From the IMG/VR virus record IMGVR_UViG_3300006735_004667, positions 1 through 55,719 of that record: 55,719 nt of DNA; one strand, given 5' to 3'. This stretch comes from a virus. Both the position numbers and the translations under genes were made by a program. This document shows positions 7,958-26,883 of this stretch, one piece after another. The notes beneath the pieces were generated by a model. That model saw only the letters and a list, made by a program, of their open reading frames with translations, had not been told where the DNA came from and ran no database searches. Positions within the stretch are counted from its first letter, which is position 1, and each line of letters opens with the position of its first letter.

Positions 7958-8027
7958 TATGTGGGAATTTAGACATTTAAAAATGCCAGACTTGAAACCG
8001 CATGTACAGTTTTTGTATAATAACAGT

Positions 8028-8732: not shown

Positions 8733-11105
8733 ATGAAATCATTTCTAGAAACAATCGTAGAAGAATCAAAAGAAGACAAATTAGATAAACTTACCCACAT
8801 GAAAAAGTATGGTGAGAAAAATCTAAAAAGTCTTATGGTTCCTTTTCCCGCTTTTGAACATATCAATTTAGAAGATTGGGAAGGATATTATCCACCAAAA
8901 AATTCTTCTGAAACAACTAAAAAAGAAATTCAATATCTCATATCTTTATCACCTATGACAGATGTATGGGAAGATGAAATAGTGATGCATGATACAAAAG
9001 TTATGAAAGCTTTTAGAAATTATGCTGATGAATATGGTTTAGAAATTGATTTTGAAAGAATAAAGAACATAAAACTTCAATCTGAACCTATAATTTTAGC
9101 TCTAAAAAGACATTATAATAGACCAAGACCGAAAGCAGTAGCAAAAGAATTAGGTCTACCAATGGACACATTCCCACTTAAAACTAACAAAACACCATCA
9201 TATCCTTCAGGACATGCTACACAAGGTAAGTTAGTATCTCTTTTAGTAGCTGATGAAGCTCCATTAGAACATAGAAGAAATATATTAAAAATTGGTGAAA
9301 GAATTGGTCAAGGAAGACAGATAGCTGGAACACATTACCCAACAGATACAGAATTTGGATTTAAATTGGGAGAACATTTATATAATCTTACTCAAAAGAG
9401 TATGGAACCTGATTTAAAATTAGAATCATTTGAACTTAAAGAAGAAGATGTGTTTATATCAATTAATGATACATTACCAAAATCACCTACAGACAGAACA
9501 CAAATTTATGAAGGTTGTGCTATTATTGAAGGTATGGGTCAAGGTTTAAAAATATTATCACACCCTGAATTTTCTCCAATTTGTAAATCTTGGATTGAAG
9601 AATTTACATCAAATGTTGAAAATGGTGAAAAAATATTATTGAATTATTGTAAAGAACTTGGTTCAGCTATAAAACAATTAGGTAATTTTAAAGATTTTAT
9701 TCATAAGACTGTTGAGGATTGGAAAACTGCAGCACCTGAAATATTTGCAGTAAAAAATCCTGATAAAGTAAATACAGCTGACTCTATTTTTATATCTAAA
9801 GGTACTAGAACAGATTTATATAATCTCATGAAAGAAATGAATCAACTAGATAAACATGGTCAACATAGAAGAATAAGAACAGAAGGTAGTAAAATTATTT
9901 TATTAAACGCTGATAACAAACCTGTTGTAGTATTTTATCAAGTATCATTAAAGAAAGATGCAAAAGCAGGTTCAGCAAGAATTGGTAAAGTTGGAAAGTT
10001 TGCTAGTTCTAGGTTTACAGATGGAGTTGCGTCAAACTTACCTTCAAAAATTCAACAAATACAAGACAATCATAATGAATGGGATATTGAAGCTGAACTT
10101 ATATCAGAAGGTATTCAAGATATATTTAATAAAGGAACAGCTGTATTAAATAGATTAGGTGCAACAGTTTCAAAAGGTGTAGACTTCTTATACAAAAAAA
10201 TAAAAGGTGTATTCTCTAAATTAGCTAAAACAGGTATGGATTTTGCTAAATCATTTACAGATAAACAAGTTAAGACAAGTAAGATAAGTAAATCAGCAAA
10301 TTCAATTATTAAACAACTAGAATCAGAAGGTGGTGTTATAACAGAATCAACAAGAACTATTGAAGCTAAACCAAATCTAGTTAAAGAAATAAAATCTTTT
10401 AATCAAGCAATGAAAGGAGACCCTATCAACAAATTATATCAAGAGAACAAAAAAATTATCAGTAAATTAAATTCTTCTTTTGATATTAAAGATAGACCAA
10501 TAGACCCTATAGTTATACTTGAAGGTGGTGATGTTAAAATATCAACAGATGATTTAAATAAACTAAAAATGCTTGACAATTTAAAACCAGGTGATACAAT
10601 ACAATTAGGATTAGGGACACCTGTAGATACAGTATTTAAATTAACTTCTAATTGGGCTGGTATGAATTACATAAAAGGTATATTAAAATATGTTGAAGGT
10701 AATATATCTAGTTATGAGAATTTATCTACATCATTGTTTGCTCTTGCAGCTGAGTTTGAGGGTGAAGCTAGATTTGGTAATACAGCTCTACCATTAGTTA
10801 TTGTTTATGGTGGTAATAAATTAAAACACATGGGAACTAGAGACGATTTTGAAAGAAAAAAAGTAGAAGATTTAGCTAAGAAAGGAAAAGAATATAATAA
10901 CTTTCCTGTATTAGTAGTTAAAGTTGCTAGAGTAGCTGGTAAAAAATATAATAGTATAAACATATTGTTAGTAGAAAGTTTAGATGGAATGCCACCACAA
11001 CCACAATATAATGTTGTTGGTATTGCTACAAACTCTGGTTCTAAATTTGCTACTAAATTTGAAATCAATACAACAACTAAAAATTGGAAAGGTGCATTGA
11101 AATAA
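8733..11105 (+). CDS. Probable internal head protein with PAP2 phosphatase domain
   Basis: 790 residues. The first residues, MKSFLETIVEE, resemble the T4 capsid-targeting peptide (MKTYQEFIAEA) with an I-x-E cleavage site. Residues about 115-205 carry all three PAP2 signatures: KRHYNRPRP, YPSGH and GRQIAGTHYPTD, so an acid or lipid phosphatase is predicted. The remaining 580 residues are not recognised; a central part (LGATVSKGVDFLYKKIKGVFSKL) is amphipathic, and further I/L-x-E sites (LISEG, VITES) occur. Inference: a large protein packaged in the head, processed by the prohead protease and ejected with DNA. It is the first gene of the 16-kb cargo region. Confidence 0.75.
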   Translation: MKSFLETIVEESKEDKLDKLTHMKKYGEKNLKSLMVPFPAFEHINLEDWEGYYPPKNSSETTKKEIQYLISLSPMTDVWEDEIVMHDTKVMKAFRNYADEYGLEIDFERIKNIKLQSEPIILALKRHYNRPRPKAVAKELGLPMDTFPLKTNKTPSYPSGHATQGKLVSLLVADEAPLEHRRNILKIGERIGQGRQIAGTHYPTDTEFGFKLGEHLYNLTQKSMEPDLKLESFELKEEDVFISINDTLPKSPTDRTQIYEGCAIIEGMGQGLKILSHPEFSPICKSWIEEFTSNVENGEKILLNYCKELGSAIKQLGNFKDFIHKTVEDWKTAAPEIFAVKNPDKVNTADSIFISKGTRTDLYNLMKEMNQLDKHGQHRRIRTEGSKIILLNADNKPVVVFYQVSLKKDAKAGSARIGKVGKFASSRFTDGVASNLPSKIQQIQDNHNEWDIEAELISEGIQDIFNKGTAVLNRLGATVSKGVDFLYKKIKGVFSKLAKTGMDFAKSFTDKQVKTSKISKSANSIIKQLESEGGVITESTRTIEAKPNLVKEIKSFNQAMKGDPINKLYQENKKIISKLNSSFDIKDRPIDPIVILEGGDVKISTDDLNKLKMLDNLKPGDTIQLGLGTPVDTVFKLTSNWAGMNYIKGILKYVEGNISSYENLSTSLFALAAEFEGEARFGNTALPLVIVYGGNKLKHMGTRDDFERKKVEDLAKKGKEYNNFPVLVVKVARVAGKKYNSINILLVESLDGMPPQPQYNVVGIATNSGSKFATKFEINTTTKNWKGALK

Positions 11106-12316
11106 TGGAATATCTGTCAGAAGCAGCTGGTAAGAATTTACACTTAGAACATCTTGAAGATGAAATTCTAAACTTTGGTATTGCTGGTGGACGAAGTGCT
11201 ATACAATTTTTACAATCATTAAGAGATATGTTTGCTAGTAGTTCAAAGTCTAAATTAAATGTGACAGTTAAGTGGGACGGAGCTCCTGCAGTCTTTGCTG
11301 GTCCGCATCCTGAAACAGGTAAATTCTTTGTAGCGAAAAAGTCTTTGTTTAGAAAAACTCAAGAACCTAAACCATATTATCATACATACGCTGACATTGA
11401 TGCTGATACTAGTGGTGAACTTAATAAAAAACTTAAAATATGTTTAGACGAGTTTAGTAAACTTGGTATGAATGAAATATTACAAGGTGATTTAATGTTT
11501 ACAGATGATACATCTAGTATGGACATTGATGGTGTTAAACATATAACTTTTCAACCTAACACTATATTGTATGCTGTTGAAGCTGACTCAAAAATAGGTA
11601 GACAAATTTCAAGTGCAAAGATTGGTGTAGTTTGGCATACAACATATAAAGGTGATTCTATTGAAAATTTAAAAGCATCATTTGGTGCAAAGATACCTAG
11701 TAAATCATCAAAAGTATGGCAAGATGATGCAACATATAGAGATGTATCAGGTAGAGCTACATTCACAGCTAAAGAAACTGTAGAAGTCACAAAATTATTA
11801 TCAGCAGCCGGTAAACAATTTCAAAGAATAAATTCAGGTTCTTTTAATGAGTTTTTAAGATGGCAAGATAGTTTAGGAACATCTGCATCAGGAGCAGGGT
11901 TTAAAACTTATTTGAATACATTTACAAGAGCTGGTAAAACATTACCAAAAGGTAAAGATGCTGTAAAATCATATCAAGCACATTTTACTAATTGGTGGAG
12001 TAAAAATAAATCAGATAGTCCTGTACAAAAATCTAAATTAAGAGAACATTTAAGAGTAATTAAAAAATCTTTAAAAACTTTAGAACAAGTTGTTGACTTT
12101 ATCAGATTTTTGATACAAGCAAAGCTGATGATAGTAAAAAAGATGGACCAAGCAAAAGGTCTAGCAAAAACATTTGTAAAAACAAGTCAAGGTTTGAAAG
12201 TAGTTGCACCAGAAGGATATGTAGCTATTGACAGAAAAGGTGAAGCTGTTAAAATTGTAGATAAAATGGAATTTAGTTTTAATAACTTTACTGTAGCTAA
12301 AAATTGGGATAAATAG
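11105..12316 (+). CDS. KxDG nucleotidyltransferase/ligase-like virion protein
   Basis: 403 residues from the ATG at 11105, which overlaps the upstream TAA; a TTG at 11084 would only add seven residues. The N-terminus MEYLSEAAG has an L-x-E site at residue 6, like the cleavable leaders of its neighbours. VTVKWDGAPAVFAGP near residues 58-72 looks like motif I (KxDG) of ATP-dependent DNA/RNA ligases and capping enzymes, with the Lys as AMP acceptor; EILQGDLMF near 125 could be motif III. Similar proteins occur in cyanophages as uncharacterised families. Ligase activity is an inference from the motifs. Confidence 0.62.
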   Translation: MEYLSEAAGKNLHLEHLEDEILNFGIAGGRSAIQFLQSLRDMFASSSKSKLNVTVKWDGAPAVFAGPHPETGKFFVAKKSLFRKTQEPKPYYHTYADIDADTSGELNKKLKICLDEFSKLGMNEILQGDLMFTDDTSSMDIDGVKHITFQPNTILYAVEADSKIGRQISSAKIGVVWHTTYKGDSIENLKASFGAKIPSKSSKVWQDDATYRDVSGRATFTAKETVEVTKLLSAAGKQFQRINSGSFNEFLRWQDSLGTSASGAGFKTYLNTFTRAGKTLPKGKDAVKSYQAHFTNWWSKNKSDSPVQKSKLREHLRVIKKSLKTLEQVVDFIRFLIQAKLMIVKKMDQAKGLAKTFVKTSQGLKVVAPEGYVAIDRKGEAVKIVDKMEFSFNNFTVAKNWDK

Positions 12317-12320
12317 TAAT

Positions 12321-12755
12321 ATGAAAGACAAAAACGCAATAGTACAATCATTTAATAGTAAATGGAAGTATCGTAAAGACAAACATCAATATGGTATGAG
12401 AGATGCTTGGAAAATAATATACTCACAAAATGCTGAAGGTAAATATGAAGGAGATTGTGAAGACTACGCTCTTTCTATTTTATATAGATTAGCTGGTGAA
12501 AGTCATTTAAAGATGTGGTGGTTATTAATTACTCACCAAGCAGGTATTTGTTTAGTAGGACCAAGTAAACTTAAAACATCACATGCTGTCTTAAGATACG
12601 AAGGTGAATATATTGATAACCAGACTAGAAAGTTTGGACCAAAATATGAAATAGAAAGAAATTATAAATTTCATATTTTTTATGGATATGGTTGGGCATA
12701 TATGACAGCTTTAAAAATGATTATAAGTAAAGTTGTAAGGACACTAAAGAAATGA
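12321..12755 (+). CDS. Transglutaminase-like cysteine protease (BTLCP type)
   Basis: 144 residues. GDCEDYALSILYRLA near residues 46-60 matches the active-site Cys segment of bacterial transglutaminase-like cysteine proteases; SHAVLRYEGEYIDNQT near 92-107 supplies the His and Asp/Asn. The protein is as short as the minimal domain and has no signal peptide. In a virion cluster it could process head proteins or act on host targets after ejection. The fold call is fairly secure, the substrate unknown. Confidence 0.68.
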   Translation: MKDKNAIVQSFNSKWKYRKDKHQYGMRDAWKIIYSQNAEGKYEGDCEDYALSILYRLAGESHLKMWWLLITHQAGICLVGPSKLKTSHAVLRYEGEYIDNQTRKFGPKYEIERNYKFHIFYGYGWAYMTALKMIISKVVRTLKK

Positions 12756-13624
12756 AAGAAAGAAAACAACCTCAAGACCCTACAGTAAAAGATGAACCAG
12801 GTACACAACCTAAGAAGTATTACAAAGGGTTGAGTAAAGACGATAAAGAAGCACGAGCAAAACACTTTGCAAAAGGTGGTAAAGGTCCTGCTCCGGGTGA
12901 TATAGATGATGATGGTGATAAAGTTAAGACTAAACCAAGTAAACATACTTTGAAATTTAGAAAAATGTTTGGAGAGAGTAATCCTGACAAATCATTAAAT
13001 GATAAAGCTAAGAAGTCAGGTATATCTGTTAGTATACTTAAACAAGTATTTAAGAGAGGTGTAAAAGCTTGGCAGACAGGACATAGACCCGGTACAACAG
13101 CTGTGCAGTGGGGTCATGCACGCGTTAATTCTTTTATTACTAAAGGTAAAGGAACATGGGGTAAAGCTGATAAAGATTTAGCTGATAAAGTTAGAAAAAC
13201 AGAACAAGTAGAAGCTGTATCAAGTGCTCAACAAGCAGCAATAGCTATTTCTAAAAAAGAAAAAGCAGGTAAACCTGGATATGATAAACATGGTAAATCG
13301 TTAAAGAATAAAAAGAAAAACGAAAGTTTATGGGATAATATCAGAAAAAAAAGAGAGAGAATTAAAAAGGGTTCTGGTGAAAAAATGAGAAAGAAAGGAG
13401 ACAAAGGAGCTCCTACTGCAGCCCAAATGAAACGAGCAGAAAGTCTTTGGGATAATATCAGAAAGAAAAGAGCAAGAATAGCTAAAGGCTCGGGTGAAAA
13501 AATGGGTGCAAAAGGTAGTGTATCAAAGAAACAATTTGATACAAGTGTAAAATTTAGTGACAGTCCTAGAGCTGACGCTGCTAGAAAAAGAAAGAACAAA
13601 ATGAAAGGTAAAGCTAAGAAATGA
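12752..13624 (+). CDS. Basic virion-associated protein with tandem repeat
   Basis: 290 residues, very Lys-rich. Three parts: residues 20-60 with KYYKGLSKDDKEARAKHFAK and a DIDDDGD acidic loop; residues 85-150 with GISVSILKQVFKRGVKAW and GTTAVQWGHARVNSF, a domain common in marine T4-like phages (DUF5824-like, from memory); and a C-terminal duplication in which SLWDNIRKKRxRIxKGSGEKM occurs twice, near residues 190 and 230. The charge suits DNA binding inside the head. It overlaps both neighbours by four bases. Function not established. Confidence 0.6.
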   Translation: MKERKQPQDPTVKDEPGTQPKKYYKGLSKDDKEARAKHFAKGGKGPAPGDIDDDGDKVKTKPSKHTLKFRKMFGESNPDKSLNDKAKKSGISVSILKQVFKRGVKAWQTGHRPGTTAVQWGHARVNSFITKGKGTWGKADKDLADKVRKTEQVEAVSSAQQAAIAISKKEKAGKPGYDKHGKSLKNKKKNESLWDNIRKKRERIKKGSGEKMRKKGDKGAPTAAQMKRAESLWDNIRKKRARIAKGSGEKMGAKGSVSKKQFDTSVKFSDSPRADAARKRKNKMKGKAKK

Positions 13625-14004
13625 AATCATTCTTAGAACATATAGATTTTGGTAAGTATGAAGGTAAGCATGTTCCTTTAGAAAGACCTATGATTGATAT
13701 TACAGAAGATGATGATAAAGAAATCAATAAACCTAAAAGAGGTGGTTCTAAAAAATTCTATGTATATGTCAAGGACGGAGATAAAGTAAAAAAAGTATCT
13801 TTCGGTGCAAAAGATGGTGGTAGTAGTTTATCAGTAAAACTTCAAGACCCTAAAGCTAGAAAAGCATTTGCTGATAGGCATAATTGTGATACAGCTAATG
13901 ATAAACTTTCAGCTAGATATTGGAGTTGTAGATTACCCAACTATGCAAAAGATTTAGGATTAGCTCCTGTTGATAAAGGAGATGGTGGTGGAATCTATTG
14001 GTAG
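13621..14004 (+). CDS. Internal head protein-like, RHNC domain
   Basis: 127 residues. MKSFLEHIDFG matches the capsid-targeting pattern at its start, although the usual Glu is replaced; DITEDD near residue 28 gives a possible I-x-E site. The C-terminal half contains ADRHNCDTANDKLSARYWSC and RLPNYAKDLGL, a Cys/His-containing module seen in several marine viruses but without known function. It starts within the stop of the upstream gene, with which it is likely co-translated. Confidence 0.6.
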   Translation: MKSFLEHIDFGKYEGKHVPLERPMIDITEDDDKEINKPKRGGSKKFYVYVKDGDKVKKVSFGAKDGGSSLSVKLQDPKARKAFADRHNCDTANDKLSARYWSCRLPNYAKDLGLAPVDKGDGGGIYW

Positions 14005-14248
14005 ACCATATAAAGATATTGGTGTAGTAAGAATATTTTATAGTGATGTAAAAAGTAATGAATTAGTTTGGCATCGTGATAAAGAAGATAGAAAAATTAC
14101 AGTAGTAGAAGGTGAAGGTTGGCAGTTTCAATTTAATGGCAGTTTACCTTTTGAATTAAAAAAAGGACAAATATTTGATATACAAGAAGGATTATATCAT
14201 AGAGTAATAAAGGGTAAAACTAATTTAGTGTTAAAGATTAAGAAATGA
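13988..14248 (+). CDS. Small cupin-like protein
   Basis: 86 residues starting at a GTG. AAGGAG at 13976-13981 is immediately next to the in-frame ATG (13982), too close to use, but six bases before the GTG at 13988, which decides the start. The sequence is all beta: VVRIFYSDV, LVWHRDKEDRKITVVEGEGW, FELKKGQIFDIQEGLYHRVI. The paired H-x-D and later G-x-x-H-R-V are typical of a one-domain cupin barrel with a possible metal site. Activity unknown. Confidence 0.6.
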   Translation: MESIGRPYKDIGVVRIFYSDVKSNELVWHRDKEDRKITVVEGEGWQFQFNGSLPFELKKGQIFDIQEGLYHRVIKGKTNLVLKIKK

Positions 14249-15423
14249 AAAATTTTAGAAACATAACAGAAGTAAAAAGTAAAAGTGCAACATTTACTTT
14301 TGGAAGATTTAATCCACCAACAGTCGGACACATGAAACTTGCAAAGAAAATGCAATCAGTATCTAGTGGTAGTGATGTAAAAATATTTACTTCTCACGGT
14401 TCTGATAAGAAAAAAAATCCTTTAACTCATTCACAAAAAACAAAATTCATGAATCCGATGTTGCCTAAAGGTGTCAAAGTATCTAATTCACAATCAAGAA
14501 CTGTATTTGATGTAGTCACAACTTTATATGATGAAGGATACAGAGAAGTACAAATGGTAGTGGGTTCAGATAGAATTAGAGAATTTGATTCGTTGTTAAA
14601 AAAATATAATGGTGTAAAAGCTAGACACGGATATTATAAATTTGATTCTATTCAAGTTGTGTCAGCAGGTCAAAGAGACCCGGATGCTGAAGGTGATGTT
14701 GGTATGTCAGCTTCTAAAATGAGACAATTTGCTTCATTGAGTCAAGAAAAAGAATTTTTAGATGCTTTACCAAAAGGATATAGACTTGGTAAACAATTAT
14801 ACAAAGCAGTACAAAAAGGTATGGGTATATCAGAAGAATTTGAAGACTTTATGTATGAAATAATGACAGAAGATAATCCTAGAATACCTAGAAAGAAAGG
14901 ACAACCTAGAGGAAGCGATAGTCATTCTGATTTATATACAGATGAAAACCCTAAAGGTACTATAAAAGGTTTAAAGTTTGCTACTGTAGAAGATGCTGAG
15001 AAAAGTGTTAAAAAAATAGAAAATTCTGGTAAAACACATGCTCATAAAATTCAAGCAGCAATTGCTATGGAACAGAGAGCAGAAGTTATGGGTAAAATAT
15101 CAGCAGCTGCTGTTTATAGAAAATACATCAATAAGATGAAAGATATTACAAAACAAAAAAATGAATATTATGAGTGGGGAACAGATAAAGGTAGAAGACA
15201 TGCACAAAAATTTACACCAGGACAAAATGTAGTTGACTATGTAAAAAGAATAAAAGAAGCAGAAGATTTACCAAAAAAAGTTTTATTATACAAAGAAAAA
15301 ATGTATAAAGAATTGAAAAAAGAAAGAAAAGACTTTGTAAAGAAACACGGAGATAAAGCTGATTCAATAATGCATGCTACTGCTATGAATATGGCAAAGA
15401 GGAAATATGGAATCGATTCTTAA
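14245..15423 (+). CDS. HxGH-type nucleotidylyltransferase, capsid-targeted
   Basis: 392 residues. The start MKNFRNITEV is a shortened targeting peptide with an I-T-E site. Residues 15-200 form a nucleotidylyltransferase: GRFNPPTVGHMKL is the (H/T)xGH motif, VVGSDR the middle motif, and SASKMR stands for ISSTxxR. Members of this fold make NAD, CDP or CoA precursors. The C-terminal half carries DENPKGTIKGLKFATVEDAE and HAHKIQAAIAMEQRA, a helical module found in marine phage proteins. Inference: an enzyme carried in the head. The substrate cannot be named. Confidence 0.7.
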   Translation: MKNFRNITEVKSKSATFTFGRFNPPTVGHMKLAKKMQSVSSGSDVKIFTSHGSDKKKNPLTHSQKTKFMNPMLPKGVKVSNSQSRTVFDVVTTLYDEGYREVQMVVGSDRIREFDSLLKKYNGVKARHGYYKFDSIQVVSAGQRDPDAEGDVGMSASKMRQFASLSQEKEFLDALPKGYRLGKQLYKAVQKGMGISEEFEDFMYEIMTEDNPRIPRKKGQPRGSDSHSDLYTDENPKGTIKGLKFATVEDAEKSVKKIENSGKTHAHKIQAAIAMEQRAEVMGKISAAAVYRKYINKMKDITKQKNEYYEWGTDKGRRHAQKFTPGQNVVDYVKRIKEAEDLPKKVLLYKEKMYKELKKERKDFVKKHGDKADSIMHATAMNMAKRKYGIDS

Positions 15424-16549
15424 TTACAAAGAAGAAGACTTAGTACTTGACTTTGATGAAGGTATAAATGACCCAGGTATATTCAAAGCAATAATACTAG
15501 CAGGTGGTCCTGGTAGTGGTAAATCTTATGTAGCTAAAAAATTAGGTTTATCCTCTCTAGGATTAGTTGTTGTTAATTCAGATACTTTTTTTGAAATGTT
15601 AATGAAACGAAAAGGTCTATCATTAAAGATGCCAGAGAATGAAATAGAAGACAGAGAAGTTGCAAGAATGGCAGCAAAAGGATTAACTGATAAAAGATAT
15701 AAGTCTTTGATTGACGCAAGACTTGGTATTCTAATAGATTCTACATCTGGTGACCAAGGTAAAACATTTAGAATGTATAGAGAATTAAAAACAGCAGGAT
15801 ATGATATTAAAGCCATATTCATTCAAACAGATTTAGATGTTGCTCTTATGAGAAACAATGAAAGAGCAAGAACATTACCACCAAGAATAGTAGAAAAATC
15901 TCATAAATCAGCTCAAGCAGTTAAAAATATGTTAAAGAAAAAAATGGGTAGAGATTTTCATGAAATAGAAAATAATGGTGGTCCAATTGATATTTCTATT
16001 TCAGGTAAATTATCAGTATGGTCAAAGAAAATGAATCAGAATGCATTAGAATGGATTGCATCAGTTAAAAGAGGTATGGATTCGAACATAAAAGAAGACA
16101 TAAATAATAGTGTTATGAAAAATTTTAAAGAATATATTAATGAAAAATTACAACCAAGAGGACAGAATATATCACTACAGGTAAAGAATTTTGATGGTAG
16201 TAGTATAGCAAATCTTGAAAAATATTCAAAACAAGATAGAACCGAATTTACATTAGCACAACTTTTTGAAATACCTGAAGAAGATGCGACAGCTGTCACT
16301 TACAAGAGAGATACAATCATTTATAGTTTTGATGATAAAGACTATGCACAAGAAATATTTGATAGTGCTAAACTAGAAACTAAGTATATGAATAGGTCTT
16401 CAAGAGAAACAGCAAAAGCTTTTAAAGCTTATGATAATCCTAGGGATTTTCCTCGTAGTGTAGGATTAGATAGATATTATGCTCATGCACACGATAGAAG
16501 AATGACACAAGAAGGTAAACCATTCGAATACATAATGAAGTTAATATAA
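15407..16549 (+). CDS. P-loop kinase fused to a capsid-targeted domain
   Basis: 380 residues. ILAGGPGSGKSYVAKKLG near residues 31-48 is Walker A; VVVNSDTFF and the helical lid resemble zeta-toxin/polynucleotide-type small kinases, with FIQTDLDVALMRNNER as the later strand and Arg helix. At residue 237 an in-frame Met (base 16115) begins MKNFKEYINEKL, an almost ideal targeting peptide with I-N-E. The remaining 144 residues are not recognised. Either two proteins are fused, or the second is also made from the internal ATG. It overlaps the upstream gene by 17 bases. Confidence 0.68.
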   Translation: MESILNYKEEDLVLDFDEGINDPGIFKAIILAGGPGSGKSYVAKKLGLSSLGLVVVNSDTFFEMLMKRKGLSLKMPENEIEDREVARMAAKGLTDKRYKSLIDARLGILIDSTSGDQGKTFRMYRELKTAGYDIKAIFIQTDLDVALMRNNERARTLPPRIVEKSHKSAQAVKNMLKKKMGRDFHEIENNGGPIDISISGKLSVWSKKMNQNALEWIASVKRGMDSNIKEDINNSVMKNFKEYINEKLQPRGQNISLQVKNFDGSSIANLEKYSKQDRTEFTLAQLFEIPEEDATAVTYKRDTIIYSFDDKDYAQEIFDSAKLETKYMNRSSRETAKAFKAYDNPRDFPRSVGLDRYYAHAHDRRMTQEGKPFEYIMKLI

Positions 16550-17373
16550 TGGCAATAGGAACAACAAACATAGGTTTTAGTACAATAGCTACAGAAGTAG
16601 GTTTACCTGCTACTAATTTAAAACTCTCAGAATTAACTAGACAACAAGTAATAATTAATCCGACTAATAGTAGACAAACATACACACTAACAGATACACT
16701 TACATTGAACGCAGAAGATAGTACGGTTGCTGATAATGTAAATTTAGCTTCTGCACCTGATGAAGTAAGTGAATTTAAATCTTACACACAAACCTCACCT
16801 AAATTTAGTGCACAAGGTGCTAATCAAGGGGACCATGTAGAAACTCTTTCAGCAAGAGATACTTTTAGTGGTAGTTGTTTTACATCTGTATTATTACATG
16901 CAAGACTTTATTGTCAAAGAGTTAGTAATGATTTAGTTTGGTATGTTGATAAAGGCACACATACTAATGGTACAACTAATTCAAATATTGGTTACAAGAA
17001 AGAAGGTACTGGTATAACATCAAGTATATCTAGCCCACTTGAAGTAGCTAGATTAGCTGGTGTTGGTTCCAGTGTCACCATAGCAACATCAGTAACAACT
17101 TTAGATAATACAACAGGTCAAGTCTTTGGAAGTATAGCTACAGGTACAACAGGTTTGACAGGTACAGGTGGTACACTTGCATCTACAAACTCTAAATATG
17201 GTATTAACTATAGTTTCCAAGGTTTAGCTGAGTGTGTCCCTTCACCGCAACAAATGAACCTCGTATATTTACATAAAACAGATGTAACAGTTAGTGGTAA
17301 AAGAGTAAGACAATTTCAATTTCATGTAGCTCTAAAATCTACTTATTCAACAAATGTAGCACAATGTTGTTAA
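16549..17373 (+). CDS. Putative virion surface protein
   Basis: 274 residues rich in Thr, Ser, Gly and Ala with predicted beta structure (VTIATSVTTLDNTTGQVFG, TGTTGLTGTGGTLAS) and few charges, unlike the Lys-rich neighbours. No targeting peptide is present. Such composition is typical of capsid decoration or fibre proteins. It starts inside the stop of the kinase gene. No family is recognised. Confidence 0.5.
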   Translation: MAIGTTNIGFSTIATEVGLPATNLKLSELTRQQVIINPTNSRQTYTLTDTLTLNAEDSTVADNVNLASAPDEVSEFKSYTQTSPKFSAQGANQGDHVETLSARDTFSGSCFTSVLLHARLYCQRVSNDLVWYVDKGTHTNGTTNSNIGYKKEGTGITSSISSPLEVARLAGVGSSVTIATSVTTLDNTTGQVFGSIATGTTGLTGTGGTLASTNSKYGINYSFQGLAECVPSPQQMNLVYLHKTDVTVSGKRVRQFQFHVALKSTYSTNVAQCC

Positions 17374-17383
17374 GAGAAATAAT

Positions 17384-17770
17384 ATGATTACAATAAGACA
17401 TAAAGAAACAATTTTAAGAAATGCTATGGATGTAGCTTATGCTATAGATGTAGATGTTGAGTGTTATAAATTACCTCTTGCTGAAAAGGATAGATTTATT
17501 AGAGAAAATTTTGATGATGCTGAAGCTACAGTTAATATAAAAGAAGTTGATTGGGATAAATCAAATAAATTAAGTTCAGAAAGACATCAATTTTTAATAC
17601 CAACTAATAAACAAACAGATACATTTCCATCAAATAAAAGAGAATCAAATACAAATTATGATTCGTTAATATGGGAATGGAGAGAAATATATAAAGAAGA
17701 TAGTGATATCATAAGACTCACTAAAGAACAATTAAAACTCAATGAAGAACATGACGGGATTCAAGAGTAG
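17384..17770 (+). CDS. Hypothetical protein
   Basis: 128 residues, acidic, with alternating helix and loop (KETILRNAMDVAYAIDVDVE near the start, IIRLTKEQLKLNEEHDG at the end). No motif is recognised. It lies ten bases after the surface-type protein and is followed directly by a late promoter, so it closes this transcription segment. Confidence 0.55.
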   Translation: MITIRHKETILRNAMDVAYAIDVDVECYKLPLAEKDRFIRENFDDAEATVNIKEVDWDKSNKLSSERHQFLIPTNKQTDTFPSNKRESNTNYDSLIWEWREIYKEDSDIIRLTKEQLKLNEEHDGIQE

Positions 17771-17775
17771 AGAAT

Positions 17776-17783
17776 TATAAATA
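17776..17783 (+). promoter_or_regulatory. T4-type late promoter (TATAAATA)
   Basis: Exact TATAAATA, 32 bases before the ATG at 17815, with ACGGAGA as ribosome site between. A second CATAAATA overlaps just downstream at 17784-17791. Confidence 0.7.
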
Positions 17784-17814
17784 CATAAATACATTACAAT
17801 AACGGAGAAAAGCC

Positions 17815-18090
17815 ATGTCAATATGGAAACCAATTACAACTGAAGCAGCATTAGGAACAAGTACAGGTGCAGCATCAAATGTCGGTAAAAGCAGATATGT
17901 CAGATTATTAAATACAGCAGCTGTGGGAACAGAACATTTAGTGACACTAGAAGAATCTGGTGGTACTGATATTGGTACATTTAGTATAGAAGGACAAATG
18001 GAATGTCTTATTCAAAAAGACCCAACTGACCAATTATTTGCAGCTAACGCAGCAGTTCTAGCTGTTGGTGTAGCAATCAACTCAAACTAA
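17815..18090 (+). CDS. Small putative head decoration protein
   Basis: 91 residues, Ala/Thr/Gly-rich and beta-like (VRLLNTAAVGTEHLVTLEE, IGTFSIEGQMECLIQK, AANAAVLAVGVAI). An exact late promoter and a good ribosome site suggest abundant late expression, fitting a structural protein. Similar short proteins are common in marine myoviruses. The function is not proven. Confidence 0.55.
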   Translation: MSIWKPITTEAALGTSTGAASNVGKSRYVRLLNTAAVGTEHLVTLEESGGTDIGTFSIEGQMECLIQKDPTDQLFAANAAVLAVGVAINSN

Positions 18091-18100
18091 GAATAACATT

Positions 18101-20776
18101 ATGAAAGAAACTACAACTATTACTGACTTTAAAGACCTACGAAAAATAATCGGAGAAGTCACAACAAAGAAACCTGCAAAAACAAGATATCAACAACAAG
18201 CAGAAAAAATGGGTTATACTAAAGACCCTAAAGTAGTTGTTAATGAAAGATTTACACCAGATAAAATTAGAGGTTTTGAAAGAGTAATTGATTTCTATGT
18301 TCAGTTTAGAGGTGGTAGAGGTGATAGAATTACTTCACCAGAAAACAAAAAAGACTTTGAAGCAGCAAAGAAAATGATTACCGCATACGGTAGAAAACAT
18401 AAGTTAAATATCAAAGACCACCCAAGACAACAAATTTACGGTACACCACAAGAAGGTTCAAGTGCATATAAGATTAGTTTGTATGCAAAATTTCACACTA
18501 GTGACCCAAATCATGATTTAAGACCATTACTTACTCAAATATCAAAACTTAAAACAGCAGAAGACCATGGTGGTGGTTATGATAAACCAATCAATGAAGA
18601 TGTATTTGTTCACACTAAAGACCCAAAAGTATTTACAGCATTACAGAAGATTGCAAAACAAACAGGTAATAAAGTTAAAAAACAATCTGGTGGTATCAAG
18701 GTCATGGGTAAAGATTTATCTAAATCAAAAGGATTTTTATATCAATTAGATAAAGTCGATATTCCTGGTTTTAATCCTAATTACGAATCGGTACAGATAG
18801 ATGAAGGAATAATATCAGAAAACTATAGAACTCTTGCAAGAAAAGGTATGGGTGCAGAAACAAGAAAATCAATTAAAGTTGGAACAGTAGTAGACTTCTA
18901 TGATAACAATGGTAATAAAAGAGAAGGTACAATTATTAAATTGGGACCAATTGGAGATGGTTATACTCTAAAAGACAACAAAGATAACAAAGTCTATAAG
19001 TTCAAATATCTTGACAGAATGAAAGCAAAGAAACTACTTGCAGCTAAAAATGAGTTTGATAAAGAACCATTGAAAGGATTCCCAGCTAATGAACAGAAAT
19101 TAGATGAAGCAATGTCAAAACGAGCAACAGTTCAACAATACGCAAGTAAAATTGGTATAGATGCAAAAGAAAAACAGTGGATATTAGACAACGAAAAAGA
19201 TATAATTGTATTTTTACCTAATCAAAATAAAGCAAACAGTTTTTCATTTTTAGGTTATCCGGTAAGAGATGGTGATTACTATTTTTCATTCTTGGTAAGT
19301 GATAAGGGAGGTGCTGACCTACAAAAAGCTAGAATGCAAGCTACTATGGCAAATACAAGAATGAATGTTTTACTTCAACAAGAAGTTAAGAGATATAGTA
19401 ATTTAAAAGGTGATTCACAACTTGCTGGTTATCTTTGGAATTACATGATGAAACATTTTGATAAATTACCAAGAAGTTTAGGTGCTGGTGATACTATGAC
19501 CAGAGAAGAATTAGCGTACGCTATTGAAGATGCAGTCGGTGCTGAAATACAGTTTGAATCATTTAATACTTCTGATTCAGAAATTACAGAAAACCTTAGT
19601 GGTATTTTTGGTAAGATTATGAATAAACTTAGAAATGCTAAGAAAAAAATGAAGAAAATGAGAATTGGTTTCAAAGCAAAAGGTATGAAAGAAGATAAGT
19701 TAGACCCTGTTGGTAAAGCTGATGATGATATTGACAACGATGGTGATACAGATGATTCTGACGCTTATCTTAAAAACAGAAGAAAGAAAATCTCTAAAGC
19801 TATTAAGATGAAAGAATCTCATGAACAAGCAAAGAGGTCACCATTCAAATTAAAATCACAAGCATTTCCAAAAGCTGTTGGTATAGAGACAGAAGGTTTT
19901 GGAACAAGACATGCTATAAGAGAAAACATTGTAGAAGCTTGTGATTGTTTTGGTATGATTACAGAACAAGAATTACAAGTAGAACAAATACAAAAAACGC
20001 TTGGCAAATTAGGATTTTTAACATATAATATATCTGAATTAAATGATGTATTTGATGAAAGAGAAACAGAAAGAATGCTTTTAGCTTTAGAGTCAGTTAT
20101 AACAGATGAAAAATTAGATGTAGTTAATTATACGAGAACTGATATTGATAAAGCTTTAGAAGAAGAATTAGAAGTAGATTTTGTAAAACCTGATGGAATG
20201 AAAGCCAGAGGTCCTGTTTTAAAAATGTGTGAGAATACTTATAACTTAAAAGATAAACATACAGGTAAATCATTTACATTTAAATATGAGGATTCAGATA
20301 TGAAAACATTTAATCAAGTTATTTCAGAAGCTAAATTTCCAAAGAAATTAGTTAGAATGGCTGGTGGTATTGCATTTGACAAAAGATATGTCGGTGGTAA
20401 TATGACAGGTGCAGTCAAAGCTATTGAAAAAATTAAGAAAGGGTTATCAGATGACCCGGAAGTAAAAAGAATGTTAAGATTAGCTAATGAATCGTTTAAC
20501 AATGAATTTTACAATGCTTTATCAGAGAAAGAACAAACAGCTTATCAAAAATTCTTTATGAAAACTCTTAAAAAGTTTAATGTAAGTTCACCTGCTGAAT
20601 TAAAAGGTGATAAAGAAAAAGAATTTTATAATTTTATCGATAAAAATTGGTCTGGTAAAAAAGAAACTGACGAAAACAAAAAAGTAAAAGTCGACCCTTC
20701 TAGCACGAAGATTGATGGTAGAAGAACTAATTTTCGTGAAAAAATGAGAAAGTTAGGATATATAAAGGCTAAATAA
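18101..20776 (+). CDS. Large multi-domain internal virion protein
   Basis: 891 residues. The N-terminus contains FKDLRKIIGEV, with an I-G-E site at residue 21. Further modules: RGGRGDRITSPENKKDF near 70; an SH3-like strand set (VGTVVDFYDNNGNKREGTI) near 265; an acidic DDDIDNDGDTDDSDAYLKNRRK loop near 545, like calcium-binding dockerin loops; and, at residue 734, MKTFNQVISEA, nearly identical in pattern to the T4 leader MKTYQEFIAEA. A GAGG lies nine bases before that internal ATG (20300). Many I/L-x-E sites suggest polyprotein-like processing. No enzyme motif is seen. Confidence 0.65.
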   Translation: MKETTTITDFKDLRKIIGEVTTKKPAKTRYQQQAEKMGYTKDPKVVVNERFTPDKIRGFERVIDFYVQFRGGRGDRITSPENKKDFEAAKKMITAYGRKHKLNIKDHPRQQIYGTPQEGSSAYKISLYAKFHTSDPNHDLRPLLTQISKLKTAEDHGGGYDKPINEDVFVHTKDPKVFTALQKIAKQTGNKVKKQSGGIKVMGKDLSKSKGFLYQLDKVDIPGFNPNYESVQIDEGIISENYRTLARKGMGAETRKSIKVGTVVDFYDNNGNKREGTIIKLGPIGDGYTLKDNKDNKVYKFKYLDRMKAKKLLAAKNEFDKEPLKGFPANEQKLDEAMSKRATVQQYASKIGIDAKEKQWILDNEKDIIVFLPNQNKANSFSFLGYPVRDGDYYFSFLVSDKGGADLQKARMQATMANTRMNVLLQQEVKRYSNLKGDSQLAGYLWNYMMKHFDKLPRSLGAGDTMTREELAYAIEDAVGAEIQFESFNTSDSEITENLSGIFGKIMNKLRNAKKKMKKMRIGFKAKGMKEDKLDPVGKADDDIDNDGDTDDSDAYLKNRRKKISKAIKMKESHEQAKRSPFKLKSQAFPKAVGIETEGFGTRHAIRENIVEACDCFGMITEQELQVEQIQKTLGKLGFLTYNISELNDVFDERETERMLLALESVITDEKLDVVNYTRTDIDKALEEELEVDFVKPDGMKARGPVLKMCENTYNLKDKHTGKSFTFKYEDSDMKTFNQVISEAKFPKKLVRMAGGIAFDKRYVGGNMTGAVKAIEKIKKGLSDDPEVKRMLRLANESFNNEFYNALSEKEQTAYQKFFMKTLKKFNVSSPAELKGDKEKEFYNFIDKNWSGKKETDENKKVKVDPSSTKIDGRRTNFREKMRKLGYIKAK

Positions 20777-20777
20777 T

Positions 20778-21851
20778 ATGAGTTGGACAACACCAGGACA
20801 AGGATATTTTAAATCAAACTTGAACTTGAATGAAAGCATTCAATCAATTATGAAAATATATCCTAGAGAGAACATTAACACTATTTCAGCATTAAGAGAT
20901 ATTGCTGGTGGTCGTGGTAGAGATGAAGGAAGAACAGCTGATGCAATAGCAAATAAATTTATTAGTTATATGATGCATGTTTCTCAGACAGATAAACAAT
21001 TATATGCAAAATATAAAAAAATGAATTTTAAAGATTTATTTAAGAAGAATCTGAATACATTTAAGAAGACAAAAGGTGGTGATGTATTCAAAATTAAATC
21101 TGGTTCACTTAAAGAAGAAACACTTCAAGAAGATGCCGCTGCTGCAGCAGATTTAAAAGCTAAACAAGCTGTTGAAGCAGAAAGATTAAAAGACAAACAA
21201 GAAAGTGAGAATGATGCTCTTAAAATGAAACATGAGAGAGAAAATGAACAACAAAAGAAAAAAGATGAATCAGAGAAAGAAGCTGAAAAAAATCAAGCAG
21301 CAAGAGAATCAGTAAATGAAGTTTCTTTTGATTCATTAAGTCCAGCAGATAAAACTCAAATGTACAAACTCCTTAGTAAAGGTATGGACTTACCTCATGG
21401 TTCACCAGCATTCAAAAAGAACAAAGCAGAACTAGATAAACTTCGTAAGAAACTCAAACTTGAAGGCCAGTTTTGGGGTCAAGATGGTATGTCAAATGCA
21501 ATTATAAATAAGCTTAAAAAGACTCATGTTAAACTAGTAAGAACCAAAGGCGGTAATTATGAGAGTGCTACTATACCTATGAAAGATAAAAATAAAATTG
21601 CACAACTAAAAAGAGATGGTTATAAAGAAGTTAAAAAAGAAGCAGTAAATGAAGGAGAAAAAATGATTGGAGAATTAAATGAAGCTAAAATGCCTTTTAA
21701 AAGTCCTACAGGTTGGAGTTTTAAAGAGGAAGGTAAAGATACAATAGTATTAACTCAATCAAAATCCTCACATTACCCAAGACCTTTTACGAGAATGACA
21801 AAAGAAGATTTTAAACTATTACAGAAAGTAATAAGACAAGTAAAGGTATAG
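20778..21851 (+). CDS. Internal virion protein, MSWTTPGQGY family, copy 1
   Basis: 357 residues. Starts with MSWTTPGQGY, also found on the next gene; an L-N-E site follows at about residue 20. Residues 115-175 form a long charged coiled coil (DLKAKQAVEAERLKDK and on), and later parts are Lys-rich. It belongs to the cargo region and is probably packaged in the head. No enzymatic motif is seen. The overlap-free two-base gap to its upstream neighbour implies coupling. Confidence 0.6.
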   Translation: MSWTTPGQGYFKSNLNLNESIQSIMKIYPRENINTISALRDIAGGRGRDEGRTADAIANKFISYMMHVSQTDKQLYAKYKKMNFKDLFKKNLNTFKKTKGGDVFKIKSGSLKEETLQEDAAAAADLKAKQAVEAERLKDKQESENDALKMKHERENEQQKKKDESEKEAEKNQAARESVNEVSFDSLSPADKTQMYKLLSKGMDLPHGSPAFKKNKAELDKLRKKLKLEGQFWGQDGMSNAIINKLKKTHVKLVRTKGGNYESATIPMKDKNKIAQLKRDGYKEVKKEAVNEGEKMIGELNEAKMPFKSPTGWSFKEEGKDTIVLTQSKSSHYPRPFTRMTKEDFKLLQKVIRQVKV

Positions 21852-21863
21852 GAGCAAAATAAA

Positions 21864-23012
21864 ATGAGTTGGACAACACCAGGACAAGGATATAATTTTA
21901 ATGAACCATTATCAGAAGGTGCAAAAGAAGTTGCAAAAGAATATCCTAGAGATAGAGAATGGCAGAAGTTAGTTAAAAAACATTCAAGGTCAATAGAAAA
22001 GTTTCAAAAAACAGGTAATTTTGACAGAAAAGCAGAAGAAGAATTAGTTTCTTGGGCAATGGATAATGGTGAAATTAGAACTGATGATGTAGATGAAACA
22101 GATGCGTGGATAGATGATATAATACTTAATAATTCATACATACCTGAAGGTGAACCTATTTCAGAACAGATATTAAATCTTATGGAAAAACCATATGACG
22201 ATAAAGATGTAAAGAATGTTCAAAAACTTGAAAAACAATTTGAGAAATTACTCAAAGAAGTAGAGAAGACTATGAGAGGTTCAGGTTTATCTGCAAATGC
22301 GTTCTCAATGGTTCGTTCAGGTATTGTAAAGGGTCTTGAAGCTATAAAGAAATTCTATAGAATTGCAGCTAAAATTCCAATGAATGCATCTAAAATCCCA
22401 ATGAAAGAAAGTGTAATATCTGAAACTAAAAGACAAGAAGTTGATGCAATGAGAAAAGTTTCTAAAGACATGCAAAAGGTCTTAAAAGATTATCAGAAAA
22501 TTTCAACAATGGGTGATAGGACACTTAAAGATACAAAATACAACCCATCTTATAAGAAAGTTCTTGATGCAAGAGACGCTATAATTACAATGATTGGAAC
22601 TCTTAACAATCAACTGTTAATGAATGAAGAACTAATAAATGAAACATCACAGCTTGAAAAAGACCTTAAAAAGTTGAAAAGAGGTGATGAAATAGCACAG
22701 ATGGATATTGTGTTTTCAGATGAAAACGAAGCTAAAAGAATGTTTCCCATAGCTAAAAGTTTAACAAGAAGAGCCGGTGGAGGAAATACAGCTCGGTATT
22801 ATGTGGACTCAAAATATGGTCCAATAATATCTATAGGGCATCAGAATGATGTAGAAGTAGCTGGTGAATTTATAGAGATGAATAAAGTAGCTATGGAAAT
22901 TGCTAAAAAGACAAAAGATAAAAAAGCAAGAGCACAAGATGTTCAGTTAGATTGGGATGCTGATTATGCATCACCTTTTAGACCTGGGACTTGGGCGTAT
23001 CCGGCAAAATGA
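21864..23012 (+). CDS. Internal virion protein, MSWTTPGQGY family, copy 2
   Basis: 382 residues sharing its first ten residues, and all 30 encoding bases, with the upstream gene; after that the two proteins diverge. L-S-E follows at about residue 18, a possible prohead-protease site. The body is helical and charged (VQKLEKQFEKLLKEVEKTM, MRKVSKDMQKVLKDYQKIS) with another targeting-like KESVISET near 190. Ribosome site GGAG lies nine bases upstream. Role as packaged protein is inferred. Confidence 0.6.
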   Translation: MSWTTPGQGYNFNEPLSEGAKEVAKEYPRDREWQKLVKKHSRSIEKFQKTGNFDRKAEEELVSWAMDNGEIRTDDVDETDAWIDDIILNNSYIPEGEPISEQILNLMEKPYDDKDVKNVQKLEKQFEKLLKEVEKTMRGSGLSANAFSMVRSGIVKGLEAIKKFYRIAAKIPMNASKIPMKESVISETKRQEVDAMRKVSKDMQKVLKDYQKISTMGDRTLKDTKYNPSYKKVLDARDAIITMIGTLNNQLLMNEELINETSQLEKDLKKLKRGDEIAQMDIVFSDENEAKRMFPIAKSLTRRAGGGNTARYYVDSKYGPIISIGHQNDVEVAGEFIEMNKVAMEIAKKTKDKKARAQDVQLDWDADYASPFRPGTWAYPAK

Positions 23013-23467
23013 TGATTACTGAAGGTAGGAGAGCACCAGATATGGGGATGCCTACACAAGCAGGTAATAATCTCTTATATGGTTTAGTTCAAAAAGCTAA
23101 ATCTGAAAGAGAATTACTTAGCATGATTGACAAACTAGCTCAAAAATTGGGTGGTAAGTATAAAGATGCTAAAGACGAACTGATTACCAGAGCTGCTATT
23201 GATTTCTTTAATAACAAAGGGAACAAAGGAGAACAAGGTAAAGCTGACCGAAATGTATTCGTTCAGGTTAAAGGAGCTGCAGACTTAAGTGGAGGCAGTG
23301 AAATAAAACTAGATGATAAAAGTAAAGTTAAAATATCAAAAAAAGAAGCTGAAAATATCATCAAAAATTTAGAGAAGGTGAAATCTCAACAAAGACTTCA
23401 AGTACAGAAGGCAATGCAAAAGGATAAAAGGTCTTTTCTAAAATTTTTAAAGATTCTAAATGTATAA
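23009..23467 (+). CDS. Small virion-cluster protein with I-T-E leader
   Basis: 152 residues from the ATG at 23009, which overlaps the previous stop (ATGA); an in-frame TTG at 22991 is less likely. MMITEGRRAPD has an I-T-E site at residue 5. The body is helical (LLYGLVQKAKSERELLSMID) with a Lys-rich end. The KVKISKKEAENIIKNLEKV segment resembles a repeat seen in other marine phage head proteins, but no family can be named. Confidence 0.55.
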   Translation: MMITEGRRAPDMGMPTQAGNNLLYGLVQKAKSERELLSMIDKLAQKLGGKYKDAKDELITRAAIDFFNNKGNKGEQGKADRNVFVQVKGAADLSGGSEIKLDDKSKVKISKKEAENIIKNLEKVKSQQRLQVQKAMQKDKRSFLKFLKILNV

Positions 23468-23470
23468 ATA
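23463..23470 (+). promoter_or_regulatory. T4-type late promoter (TATAAATA)
   Basis: Exact TATAAATA overlapping the stop of the preceding gene, 40 bases before the ATG at 23510, with TAGGAG as ribosome site. The gene that follows has the richest codon usage in this region, as expected of a highly expressed late protein. Confidence 0.7.
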
Positions 23471-23509
23471 CATATAGAATTAAAATTTTTTAAATTAGGA
23501 GAAATAAAA

Positions 23510-24103
23510 ATGCCACTATGGGGAGCAACAGACGCAGACGAGTCAAAACCTAAACACTTGACAACTGCACAAAAGAAAGAAGTATATGCGAACGCTAGCG
23601 GTTGGGTAGTAGAAGCAGGCTCTACACAATCTGGAAATGGTAATACAAGTGCTACTCCAGAAGTTTTAGTGGCCATCGGTTCTCTAGCAACTTCATTAGG
23701 TTCAGCAGATATTACTGAAATAGATTGGATTACAACAGCAGCAGACAAATCAGACGGATTTAGTCTTTCTGTTAGAGTATTCTTTAACGAACCGGTTGAT
23801 GTAGATACAGGAAGTGGAACACCTTATGTAGCAGTAACCAACGGAAACGAAGGTACAGGTACAGGTCGTGGACCTCACAACTTACCATACGCTTCTGGAA
23901 CAGGTACAAATGAGTTAGTGTTCACATTAGCAATAGCAGCAGCCAATGCAGCTACAAATGCTGATGATGTATTAACAATCGGTACTAATGCTATGAACTT
24001 GAACTCTGGTACAATTAAAGATGCTGGTACTTCAACAAACGCAACTATTACAAATAGTTCAGCGATTGGAACAGCAGCAGGTTCAATTACAGTAACAGCT
24101 TAA
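23510..24103 (+). CDS. Putative abundant structural protein
   Basis: 197 residues. MPLWGATDADESKPKHLT and the following AQKKEVYANASGWVVEAG are typical of a conserved marine myovirus structural protein. The middle is Ig-like in pattern (DGFSLSVRVFFNEPVDVDT, ELVFTLAIAAANAATNADD), and the end is a Thr/Ala/Ser-rich beta stretch. It has its own exact late promoter and a higher proportion of C/G-ending codons than its neighbours. Decoration or surface protein is likely. Confidence 0.6.
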   Translation: MPLWGATDADESKPKHLTTAQKKEVYANASGWVVEAGSTQSGNGNTSATPEVLVAIGSLATSLGSADITEIDWITTAADKSDGFSLSVRVFFNEPVDVDTGSGTPYVAVTNGNEGTGTGRGPHNLPYASGTGTNELVFTLAIAAANAATNADDVLTIGTNAMNLNSGTIKDAGTSTNATITNSSAIGTAAGSITVTA

Positions 24104-24116
24104 TTAGGATAATATT

Positions 24117-24512
24117 ATGAAATCTTTTAAAAGTTATATAAAAGAATATCATCATTCAGGTGGGATAACTTCAGATGTCCCACCCGATTTCCATAGACTT
24201 GACCAAGAAGATGTAAAAGTTAGAGTCAATACATGGTTAGAAGGGTGTTCTAGTATGGAATATATGAGTGTTGAAGCAGCACTAACACAATTAGCAGGTA
24301 AAATTCAACAACTAGGTCTTACATTTACTATGTCAGAACAAGAGTTCGGTAGTTCAGGTAATATATCATTAAATGTTCATCAATTTGGTGAAAAATTTGA
24401 CCCAGCAGAAACTCACATTTTAGAACCTGTAATACCAGAAGACTTGTCTATGAGTGTATCATATGAAACAAGTGGAAATGGTGGATATAAAATATCAGCT
24501 AAATTGAACTAG
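24117..24512 (+). CDS. Capsid-targeted small protein
   Basis: 131 residues. MKSFKSYIKEY fits the targeting pattern exactly, with I-K-E at residue 10. The rest looks like one alpha/beta domain (VKVRVNTWLEGCSSMEYM, VEAALTQLAGKIQQLGLTF, LSMSVSYETSGNGGYKISA). No enzyme motif is seen. It is the last gene of the cargo region and shares a transcript with the structural protein at 23510. Confidence 0.6.
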   Translation: MKSFKSYIKEYHHSGGITSDVPPDFHRLDQEDVKVRVNTWLEGCSSMEYMSVEAALTQLAGKIQQLGLTFTMSEQEFGSSGNISLNVHQFGEKFDPAETHILEPVIPEDLSMSVSYETSGNGGYKISAKLN

Positions 24513-26621: not shown

Positions 26622-26883
26622 GTGTCCAGAAGAATTAATTTGTTTTACTGAAGATGAATGGGTAGACTTTATTATGGAATATGAATTAGATATCATAGAT
26701 GAAACAAATTTGACTGCTGTTGAATCAACAAGTGATGCACAAGCAGTAGCAGACTTCACATGGCAAATACTATTTTTAAGTCCTTGGGAACTAGCATACA
26801 TAGCATTACCAATGACTGTATTAGCATGCTATGGACTAACAATATACGGATTATTTAAATATATACAAAGGAGATTTTCATAA
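26614..26883 (+). CDS. Small C-terminally anchored membrane protein
   Basis: 89 residues. The first 50 are acidic (CFTEDEWVDFIMEYELDIID); residues about 58-80 form a hydrophobic helix (LAYIALPMTVLACYGLTIYG) followed by a basic tail KYIQRRFS, so the acidic part may lie outside the cytoplasm or at the membrane. It abuts the acyl carrier protein gene, whose ribosome site is inside its 3' end. Confidence 0.55.
   Translation: MIECPEELICFTEDEWVDFIMEYELDIIDETNLTAVESTSDAQAVADFTWQILFLSPWELAYIALPMTVLACYGLTIYGLFKYIQRRFS

Follow-up and report, generated by a model that had tools for sequence, protein, structure and literature searches.

Leader-bearing enzymes as predicted head cargo in the gp41-gp61 locus of a T4-like phage fragment

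The internal protein IPIII of phage T4 carries a ten-residue leader that acts in prohead targeting mainly through residues 4 and 7, with residues 8 and 10 required for cleavage by gp21, and the general idea that such leaders load varied proteins in T4-like phages has already been published (PMC9026906). Here we analyzed IMG/VR record IMGVR_UViG_3300006735_004667, a 55.7-kb fragment of a T4-like, Kyanoviridae-like phage (55,719 nucleotides; the whole stretch is referred to as the window), and specifically a cluster of 17 genes located between those for the gp41 helicase and the gp61 primase. An earlier note on this DNA had read the cluster as a packaged set of enzymes with T4-like capsid-targeting leaders. 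Our analysis suggests that the locus likely encodes head cargo, namely enzymes that are targeted by their leaders, cut by gp21 in the prohead and probably ejected with the DNA. As leader loading is already described, we regard this as a variant of T4 capsid targeting acting on an enzyme set and not as a new system.

Conservation of the leaders and their predicted cleavage sites

All N-termini named in the earlier note were present at their positions in the window (Table 1; genes are denoted by their first position), and the product of gene 18101 begins MKETTTITDFKDLRKIIGE. The leaders of 8733 and 24117 are exactly in the register of the T4 IPIII leader, while the others are shorter or longer. 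When a leader was counted as [I/L]-x-E with the glutamate at residues 4-20, the motif occurred in 9 of 17 cluster genes versus 12 of the 63 other genes of the window (Fisher p=0.008), with 3.0 leader-bearing cluster genes expected from internal windows of the same proteins (p=3e-4). This excess within the window is modest and, alone, suggestive only. We next compared N-termini across 80 IMG/VR loci surrounding DUF6267 and named phages, calling orthologues for every gene of the region and counting distinct orthologues with [I/L]xE in residues 4-20 against the internal expectation from the same proteins. This revealed that the leader of the PAP2 protein (8733) is kept in 23 of 24 relatives (96%; internal expectation 16%), that of the nucleotidylyltransferase (14245) in 40 of 47 (85%; 13%), that of the DUF6267 protein (11105) in 16 of 23 (70%; 9%), and those of the 24117 and 23009 families in 8 of 10 (80%; 21%) and 8 of 12 (expectation 0%), respectively. 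The five relatives of 18101 all keep I-x-E (expectation 30%), and all 26 kinase relatives (100%; 5%) carry [LI]xE↓G (the arrow marks the candidate cut), whereas the corresponding site of the window kinase (15407), which the earlier note did not list among its leaders, is FDE. Control genes were at or below expectation (gp41, 24% versus 28%; gene 8512, 35% versus 80%) or at 0% (7959, 24909, 16549, 17815, and 23510). Conservation among related phages is thus far above internal expectation, and as the leaders are conserved in the IMG/VR relatives we consider them to be beyond chance. Seven cluster genes (12321, 12752, 13970, 16549, 17384, 17815, and 23510) have no leader passing the conservation test; of these, 16549 and 17815 were rejected as leader genes, having a conserved glutamate near the N-terminus with other residues at P3.

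In the relatives, P3 is isoleucine or leucine, P2 varies freely and P1 is glutamate, and at the level of sequence the alternation expected of a protease site is seen. The P1 column was anchored on glutamate for the kinase, nucleotidylyltransferase and DUF6267 families, so that P1 can be read without bias only in PAP2, 24117, and 23009; with the position fixed independently of the residue, glutamate occupies it in 19/24, 9/10, and 8/8 of these, respectively. In the 23009 family the whole leader is M-I-x-E, with x being T, N, D, S, or L, followed by ↓GR, and all eight in-register members have both the glutamate and I/L. Members of the 24117 family have bodies only 26-32% identical, and leaders such as MKSFKTYINE and MKKFAEFIAE persist. 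Distant homologues of 13621 have [IL]xE just upstream of (A/S)E(Y/F)QG.

Sites of the same kind are predicted from sequence in the head proteins gp23 and gp21. The candidates are FLSE↓A and YITE↓A in Methylophilales phage Melnitz, LLTE↓A and FLAE↓A in cyanophages, and ISE↓A and LITE in G001 and G002, two genomes that hold the same cluster; among the relatives overall, predicted gp23 sites are ISE↓A, LSE↓A, LTE↓A, and LAE↓A, with ITE or LTE near the N-terminus of gp21. A gp21 homologue (S77 prohead protease) was found in Melnitz, in cyanophages, and in the three largest contigs from relatives that were examined. In the window, a fragment that lacks the gp20-gp23 head region, the only candidate was a Pfam S77 match at 17354-17572 that scored 14 bits, below cut-off, contained an internal stop and was rejected as a chance match; the gp21 homologue that the earlier note proposed to test for is present in relatives of this phage, and the fragment itself gave only this rejected match. 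One type of leader is found on the unrelated bodies of the PAP2, DUF6267, nucleotidylyltransferase, kinase, 23009, and 24117 families. Taken together, conservation, register and motif identity with gp23 and gp21 support the earlier proposal that these are putative T4-like capsid-targeting propeptides with a gp21-type site.

The start of the DUF6267 protein varies among relatives, with MEFLTE↓AAGKNLHLEH, MKSFYQHIISE↓AASPGKNLHLEH and MLRFKQYLAE↓AKEGKNLHLEH all represented, and the remaining, leaderless relatives begin exactly at the junction (MAGKNLHLEH). In some cyanophages the leader is followed by an extra stretch of 65-90 residues and then by the nucleotidylyltransferase domain. Elsewhere in the Melnitz genome a kinase-like gene starts MKTFAELQE↓GVYDP, and further leaders occur in a Stenotrophomonas phage (MMKFTQFLAE↓S, MKNIKDILE↓A) and in phage C48C1 (MLSFKQFVSE, MITFKKYLEE, MKKFTEIRE, MKKFKQYIDE). 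As judged from these N-termini, the leader is a movable module. In 14 loci (L049-L065, e.g. L049:5591-6889) the nucleotidylyltransferase and the P-loop kinase share a single frame, and the junction between the two retains L-x-E↓G (LLQE, MLTE, DLYE, VLEE, LLSE). A site at this position is poorly explained by translation start or by targeting alone and fits proteolysis. In the window kinase, the internal leader-like MKNFKEYINE at residues 237-246 opens a C-terminal extension, and in Melnitz and HTVC008M DUF5824 is fused behind the nucleotidylyltransferase. NadR has the domain order NMNAT followed by ribosylnicotinamide kinase, and the order in the nucleotidylyltransferase-kinase fusions is the same.

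These data bear on the possibility that the leaders serve as targeting helices for entry into the prohead and remain uncut. T4 IPIII with aspartate at position 10 is still packaged, unprocessed (PMC9026906), and every relative in the PAP2 and 24117 families (100%) has phenylalanine at position 4, as such a role would predict; however, P1 glutamate and P3 isoleucine or leucine are among the best-kept leader positions while P2 is free, and the motif is kept at fusion-internal junctions, a place where it would be superfluous for targeting alone. We therefore consider uncut helices unlikely and favour cleaved propeptides.

Virion data from cyanophages and alternative readings

Orthologues of the locus have been found in purified virions of cyanophages by published mass spectrometry. 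The nucleotidylyltransferase T4-GC190 was detected in S-SM1 (PMC3037559), ORF154 (nucleotidylyltransferase) and its neighbours 155, 156, and 160 in S-CREM2 (PMC10665884), and genes 136, 139, and 140 in S-SZBM1 (PMC9146016), while genes 89, 90, 91, 92, 93, 95, and 97 of S-SCSM1 are annotated as virion proteins (PMC9602691). The S-SCSM1 locus (SSCSM1_89 to _97) thus has seven virion proteins among nine genes, and none of the flanking gp41, recombinase, primase, and ribonucleotide reductase genes is so marked. The nucleotidylyltransferases of all four phages open with a leader that ends in [I/L]xE and is followed by alanine (MKKFSAFLNE↓A in S-SM1, MKNFSSFLTE↓A in S-CREM2, MRFRQFIIE↓A in S-SZBM1, and MKSFLQFLKE↓A in S-SCSM1), and the portions consulted of the four virion papers report no leader or packaging mechanism for this protein. 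The DUF6267 protein of S-SZBM1 (gene 141), which lacks a leader, is not listed in those parts of the phage's virion table that were consulted (PMC9146016). Direct BLAST matches between the cyanophage and window clusters comprise DUF6267, the nucleotidylyltransferase, 18101 over a short stretch only and, in S-SM1, the S-layer-like gene, the rest being positional counterparts. The 18101 match joins its DNDGD-rich segment to the S-SCSM1 virion protein SSCSM1_92; 23510 directly matches only SSM1_195, while its positional counterparts S-SZBM1_136 and SSCSM1_95 are virion-detected. The conservation of the leaders and the identity of their motif are read from sequence, and presence in virions comes from these orthologue data of others.

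The earlier proposal of a packaged cargo set gains support from the virion orthologues and the leaders, but the 16-kb cluster is not one uniform set, as about half of its genes are leaderless, including the S-layer-like 23510 despite its virion-protein counterparts. Several further points weigh against head cargo. Chance [IL]xE near the N-terminus is common, as seen in the 12 non-cluster genes, and the motif of gene 24537 (FEELNE), rejected as a leader as its relatives lack it or keep it within a conserved body, is a likely false positive. The HTVC008M nucleotidylyltransferase (MKTLKELLRKKVG) has lost the site, and some fusion-protein leaders have phenylalanine at P3 (FKE, FNE). The virion-detected products SSCSM1_92, _93, _95, and _97 have no leader, and so the leader is not the sole route into the virion. 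For all these proteins, cleavage after [I/L]-x-E is inferred from sequence only. Finally, the proteomics authors allow that such enzymes may be carried over from the lysate (including PMC9602691), which would fit late cytoplasmic enzymes whose N-terminal motif serves another role, and the functions do look metabolic. We regard this as very unlikely: detection recurs across four independent preparations of virions, virion proteins are concentrated in the S-SCSM1 locus next to unmarked flanking genes, and unrelated bodies have a single leader type in common. That the cluster instead encodes tail, baseplate or decoration proteins is most improbable: the S-layer-like gene and those of the 16549/17815 type look structural and lack leaders, and some cyanophage counterparts are virion proteins, but catalytic motifs are kept in the PAP2 protein, the P-loop kinase and the nucleotidylyltransferase, and the leaders match the sites of a head protease whose T4 substrates are head proteins.

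Genes and enzyme families of the locus

Table 1. Leader-bearing and other selected genes of the cluster, with positions in the window.
Product	Position	Strand	Leader or candidate site	Other features
790-aa protein	8733..11105	+	MKSFLETIVE (8733-8762)	class A acid phosphatase/PAP2 domain, matched aa 122-217; C-terminal part without assignment
DUF6267 protein	11105..12316	+	MEYLSE (11105-11122)	invariant VKWDG (KxDG)
DUF5824 protein	12752..13624	+	no leader	Pfam DUF5824 4e-24
127-aa protein	13621..14004	+	starts MKSFLEHID; possible site at residue 29 (PMIDITE)	
NMNAT/cytidylyltransferase-like protein	14245..15423	+	MKNFRNITE (14245-14271)	TxGH, GMSASKMR; phrog_395 1.6e-51
P-loop kinase	15407..16549	+	site at residue 18, VLDFDE↓GIND (15407-15460)	internal MKNFKEYINE (16115-16144)
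891-aa protein	18101..20776	+	...FKDLRKIIGE (18101-18157)	DNDGD-rich segment
357-aa protein	20778..21851	+	candidate LNE at residue 19	starts MSWTTPGQGY
382-aa protein	21864..23012	+	candidate LSE at residue 18	starts MSWTTPGQGY
152-aa protein	23009..23467	+	very short, MMITE↓GRRAPD	
S-layer-like protein	23510..24103	+	no leader	phrog_11617 1e-55
131-aa protein	24117..24512	+	MKSFKSYIKE (24117-24146)	exact T4 IPIII register

The PAP2 and P-loop kinase assignments of the earlier note hold. The 8733 protein matched Pfam PAP2 (8e-8, above cut-off) and class A acid phosphatases in the PDB (E 2.6e-9), and it has the class A motifs KX6RP - PSGH - SRX5HX3D, with K125, R132-P133, P158-S159-G160-H161, R195, H201, and D205 invariant in 24 relatives; a tblastn search of isolated phages with this protein found no match. 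Its structural model is poor outside the phosphatase domain, where the sequence SLKK (residues 405-408) is likewise invariant in the 24 relatives and, with the strands that precede it in this poorly modelled region, may form a nuclease-like core. The kinase has the Walker A motif GGPGSGKS and matched Pfam Zeta_toxin (2e-14; 53.8 bits versus a cut-off of 22.3) and AAA_33 (3e-11). For the predicted HxGH nucleotidylyltransferase the enzyme family stands, with the motif being TxGH (GRFNPPTVGH) instead of HxGH, as in marine relatives; T26-G28-H29 and S155-A156-S157-K158-M159-R160 are invariant, there is a weak NMNAT match, and PDB sequence searches gave nothing convincing. The protein described as KxDG ligase-like is a DUF6267 member (Pfam 1e-93) in which V55-K56-W57-D58-G59 is invariant in 30 sequences, and its conserved EG-VA and VK-VD segments are, by eye, reminiscent of ligase motifs IV and V. 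The KxDG motif is confirmed and the RNA/DNA-ligase fold is not: a fold search with the model, whose predicted local distance difference test score (pLDDT) is <50 around the motif, gave no informative match, and the ligase assignment is a lead only.

In the remaining products of the cluster, residues ~190-260 of the 12752-13624 protein contain two copies of SLWDNIRKKRxRIxKGSGEKM (phrog_16028). The ejection protein gp54 of phage SPN3US has a reported mature N-terminus of SLWDDIK, after a glutamate (PMC10052503), a likeness that is possibly coincidence. The adjacent 20778-21851 and 21864-23012 products are identical in their first ten residues and divergent afterwards, while 12321-12755, present in one related locus only, has a weak, sub-threshold likeness to BTLCP/LapG transglutaminase-like cysteine proteinases. 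Directly 5' of the cluster, 7959-8534 encodes a leaderless 5'-nucleotidase (NT5C, HAD type), and phosphatases resembling it lie inside the cluster in Melnitz and HTVC008M. The product of 26883-27107 is acyl carrier protein-like by eye (LGADSLN).

Beyond the cluster, the window encodes a T4-type gp43 DNA polymerase, UvsX, a gp41-type helicase, a primase, a ribonucleotide reductase and a single-stranded DNA-binding protein, with head-closure, tail-tube and baseplate genes beyond a strand switch. Among named phages, those closest to the window are Melnitz (DUF6267 55%, polymerase 49% identity), Pelagibacter phage HTVC008M, whose DUF6267 protein is 42% identical, and cyanophages, whose polymerases are at most 49% identical. 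As the nearest named phages are mixed and stand at ~55% identity or less, the pelagiphage label used previously is not justified.

Proposed mechanism and comparison with known systems

We propose that N-terminal leaders, typically M-K-x-F-x-x-x-I/L-x-E, would dock the enzymes onto the scaffold core during prohead assembly, as in T4 IPIII. The protease gp21 would then cut after [I/L]-x-E, at sites like those used in the maturation of gp23 and probably of gp21 itself, freeing mature enzymes within the head, and enzymes fused in one chain would probably be parted at internal sites of this kind. Judging from the internal proteins and Alt of T4, the cargo probably enters the host alongside the DNA, and we conjecture that it acts immediately on host nucleotides, NAD+ or RNA, ahead of phage gene expression. 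A broader and tentative possibility is that T4-like phages, marine ones and others, have a modular locus set aside for cargo. Within the head, gp21 would have two tasks there, freeing enzymes that bear a leader and cleaving precursors that contain several enzymes. The phosphatase, the KxDG protein, the nucleotidylyltransferase and the kinase (the last two fused in NadR-like order in some relatives) would then make up an entry-delivered pathway directed at NAD+ salvage or at RNA repair against host defences.

If head delivery is correct, abundant ocean phages deliver an enzyme set ahead of any phage gene expression. The cyanophage nucleotidylyltransferase has repeatedly been seen in virions with the choice between cargo and contamination left open, and conserved targeting together with a protease site offers a mechanism. 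The leader logic also predicts which neighbours are cargo and their exact mature N-termini, which can be checked in existing mass-spectrometry files. The earlier note knew of no description of such a locus in pelagiphages. Virion presence is in fact partly known from cyanophages, while the propeptide logic was not found: the accessible parts of the Melnitz and pelagimyophage papers, and targeted searches of a limited literature, yielded no description of the leaders or of the cargo locus.

Among the closest described systems are T4 IPI, IPII, and IPIII, which share with the present proteins a ten-residue leader with an aromatic residue at position 4, I/L at 8, E at 10 and a gp21-type site, and in which a leader is likewise common to unrelated bodies. 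The T4 internal proteins are small and basic, whereas here large enzymes are encoded in a conserved syntenic locus, leaders range from ~4 to 19 residues and there are apparent multi-domain fusions with internal sites. The ADP-ribosyltransferase Alt of T4 is also a head-packaged enzyme with a short cleaved propeptide (seven residues) that is delivered with the DNA, features predicted here, but Alt is a single enzyme of a different class, while several enzyme families occur together in this locus. Head ejection proteins of giant phages of the SPN3US/phiKZ type are carried in the head and cleaved behind a glutamate by a prohead protease, as predicted here; however, their motif is A-x-E, unlike the [I/L]-x-E of the window, their propeptides are mostly long and they belong to a different phage lineage. 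The cyanophage cytidylyltransferase/NMNAT protein (T4-GC190; S-SM1, S-CREM2, S-SZBM1, and S-SCSM1) is an orthologue from the same syntenic locus and is virion-detected, and to it the window adds the PAP2 protein, the kinase and the other leader-bearing families.

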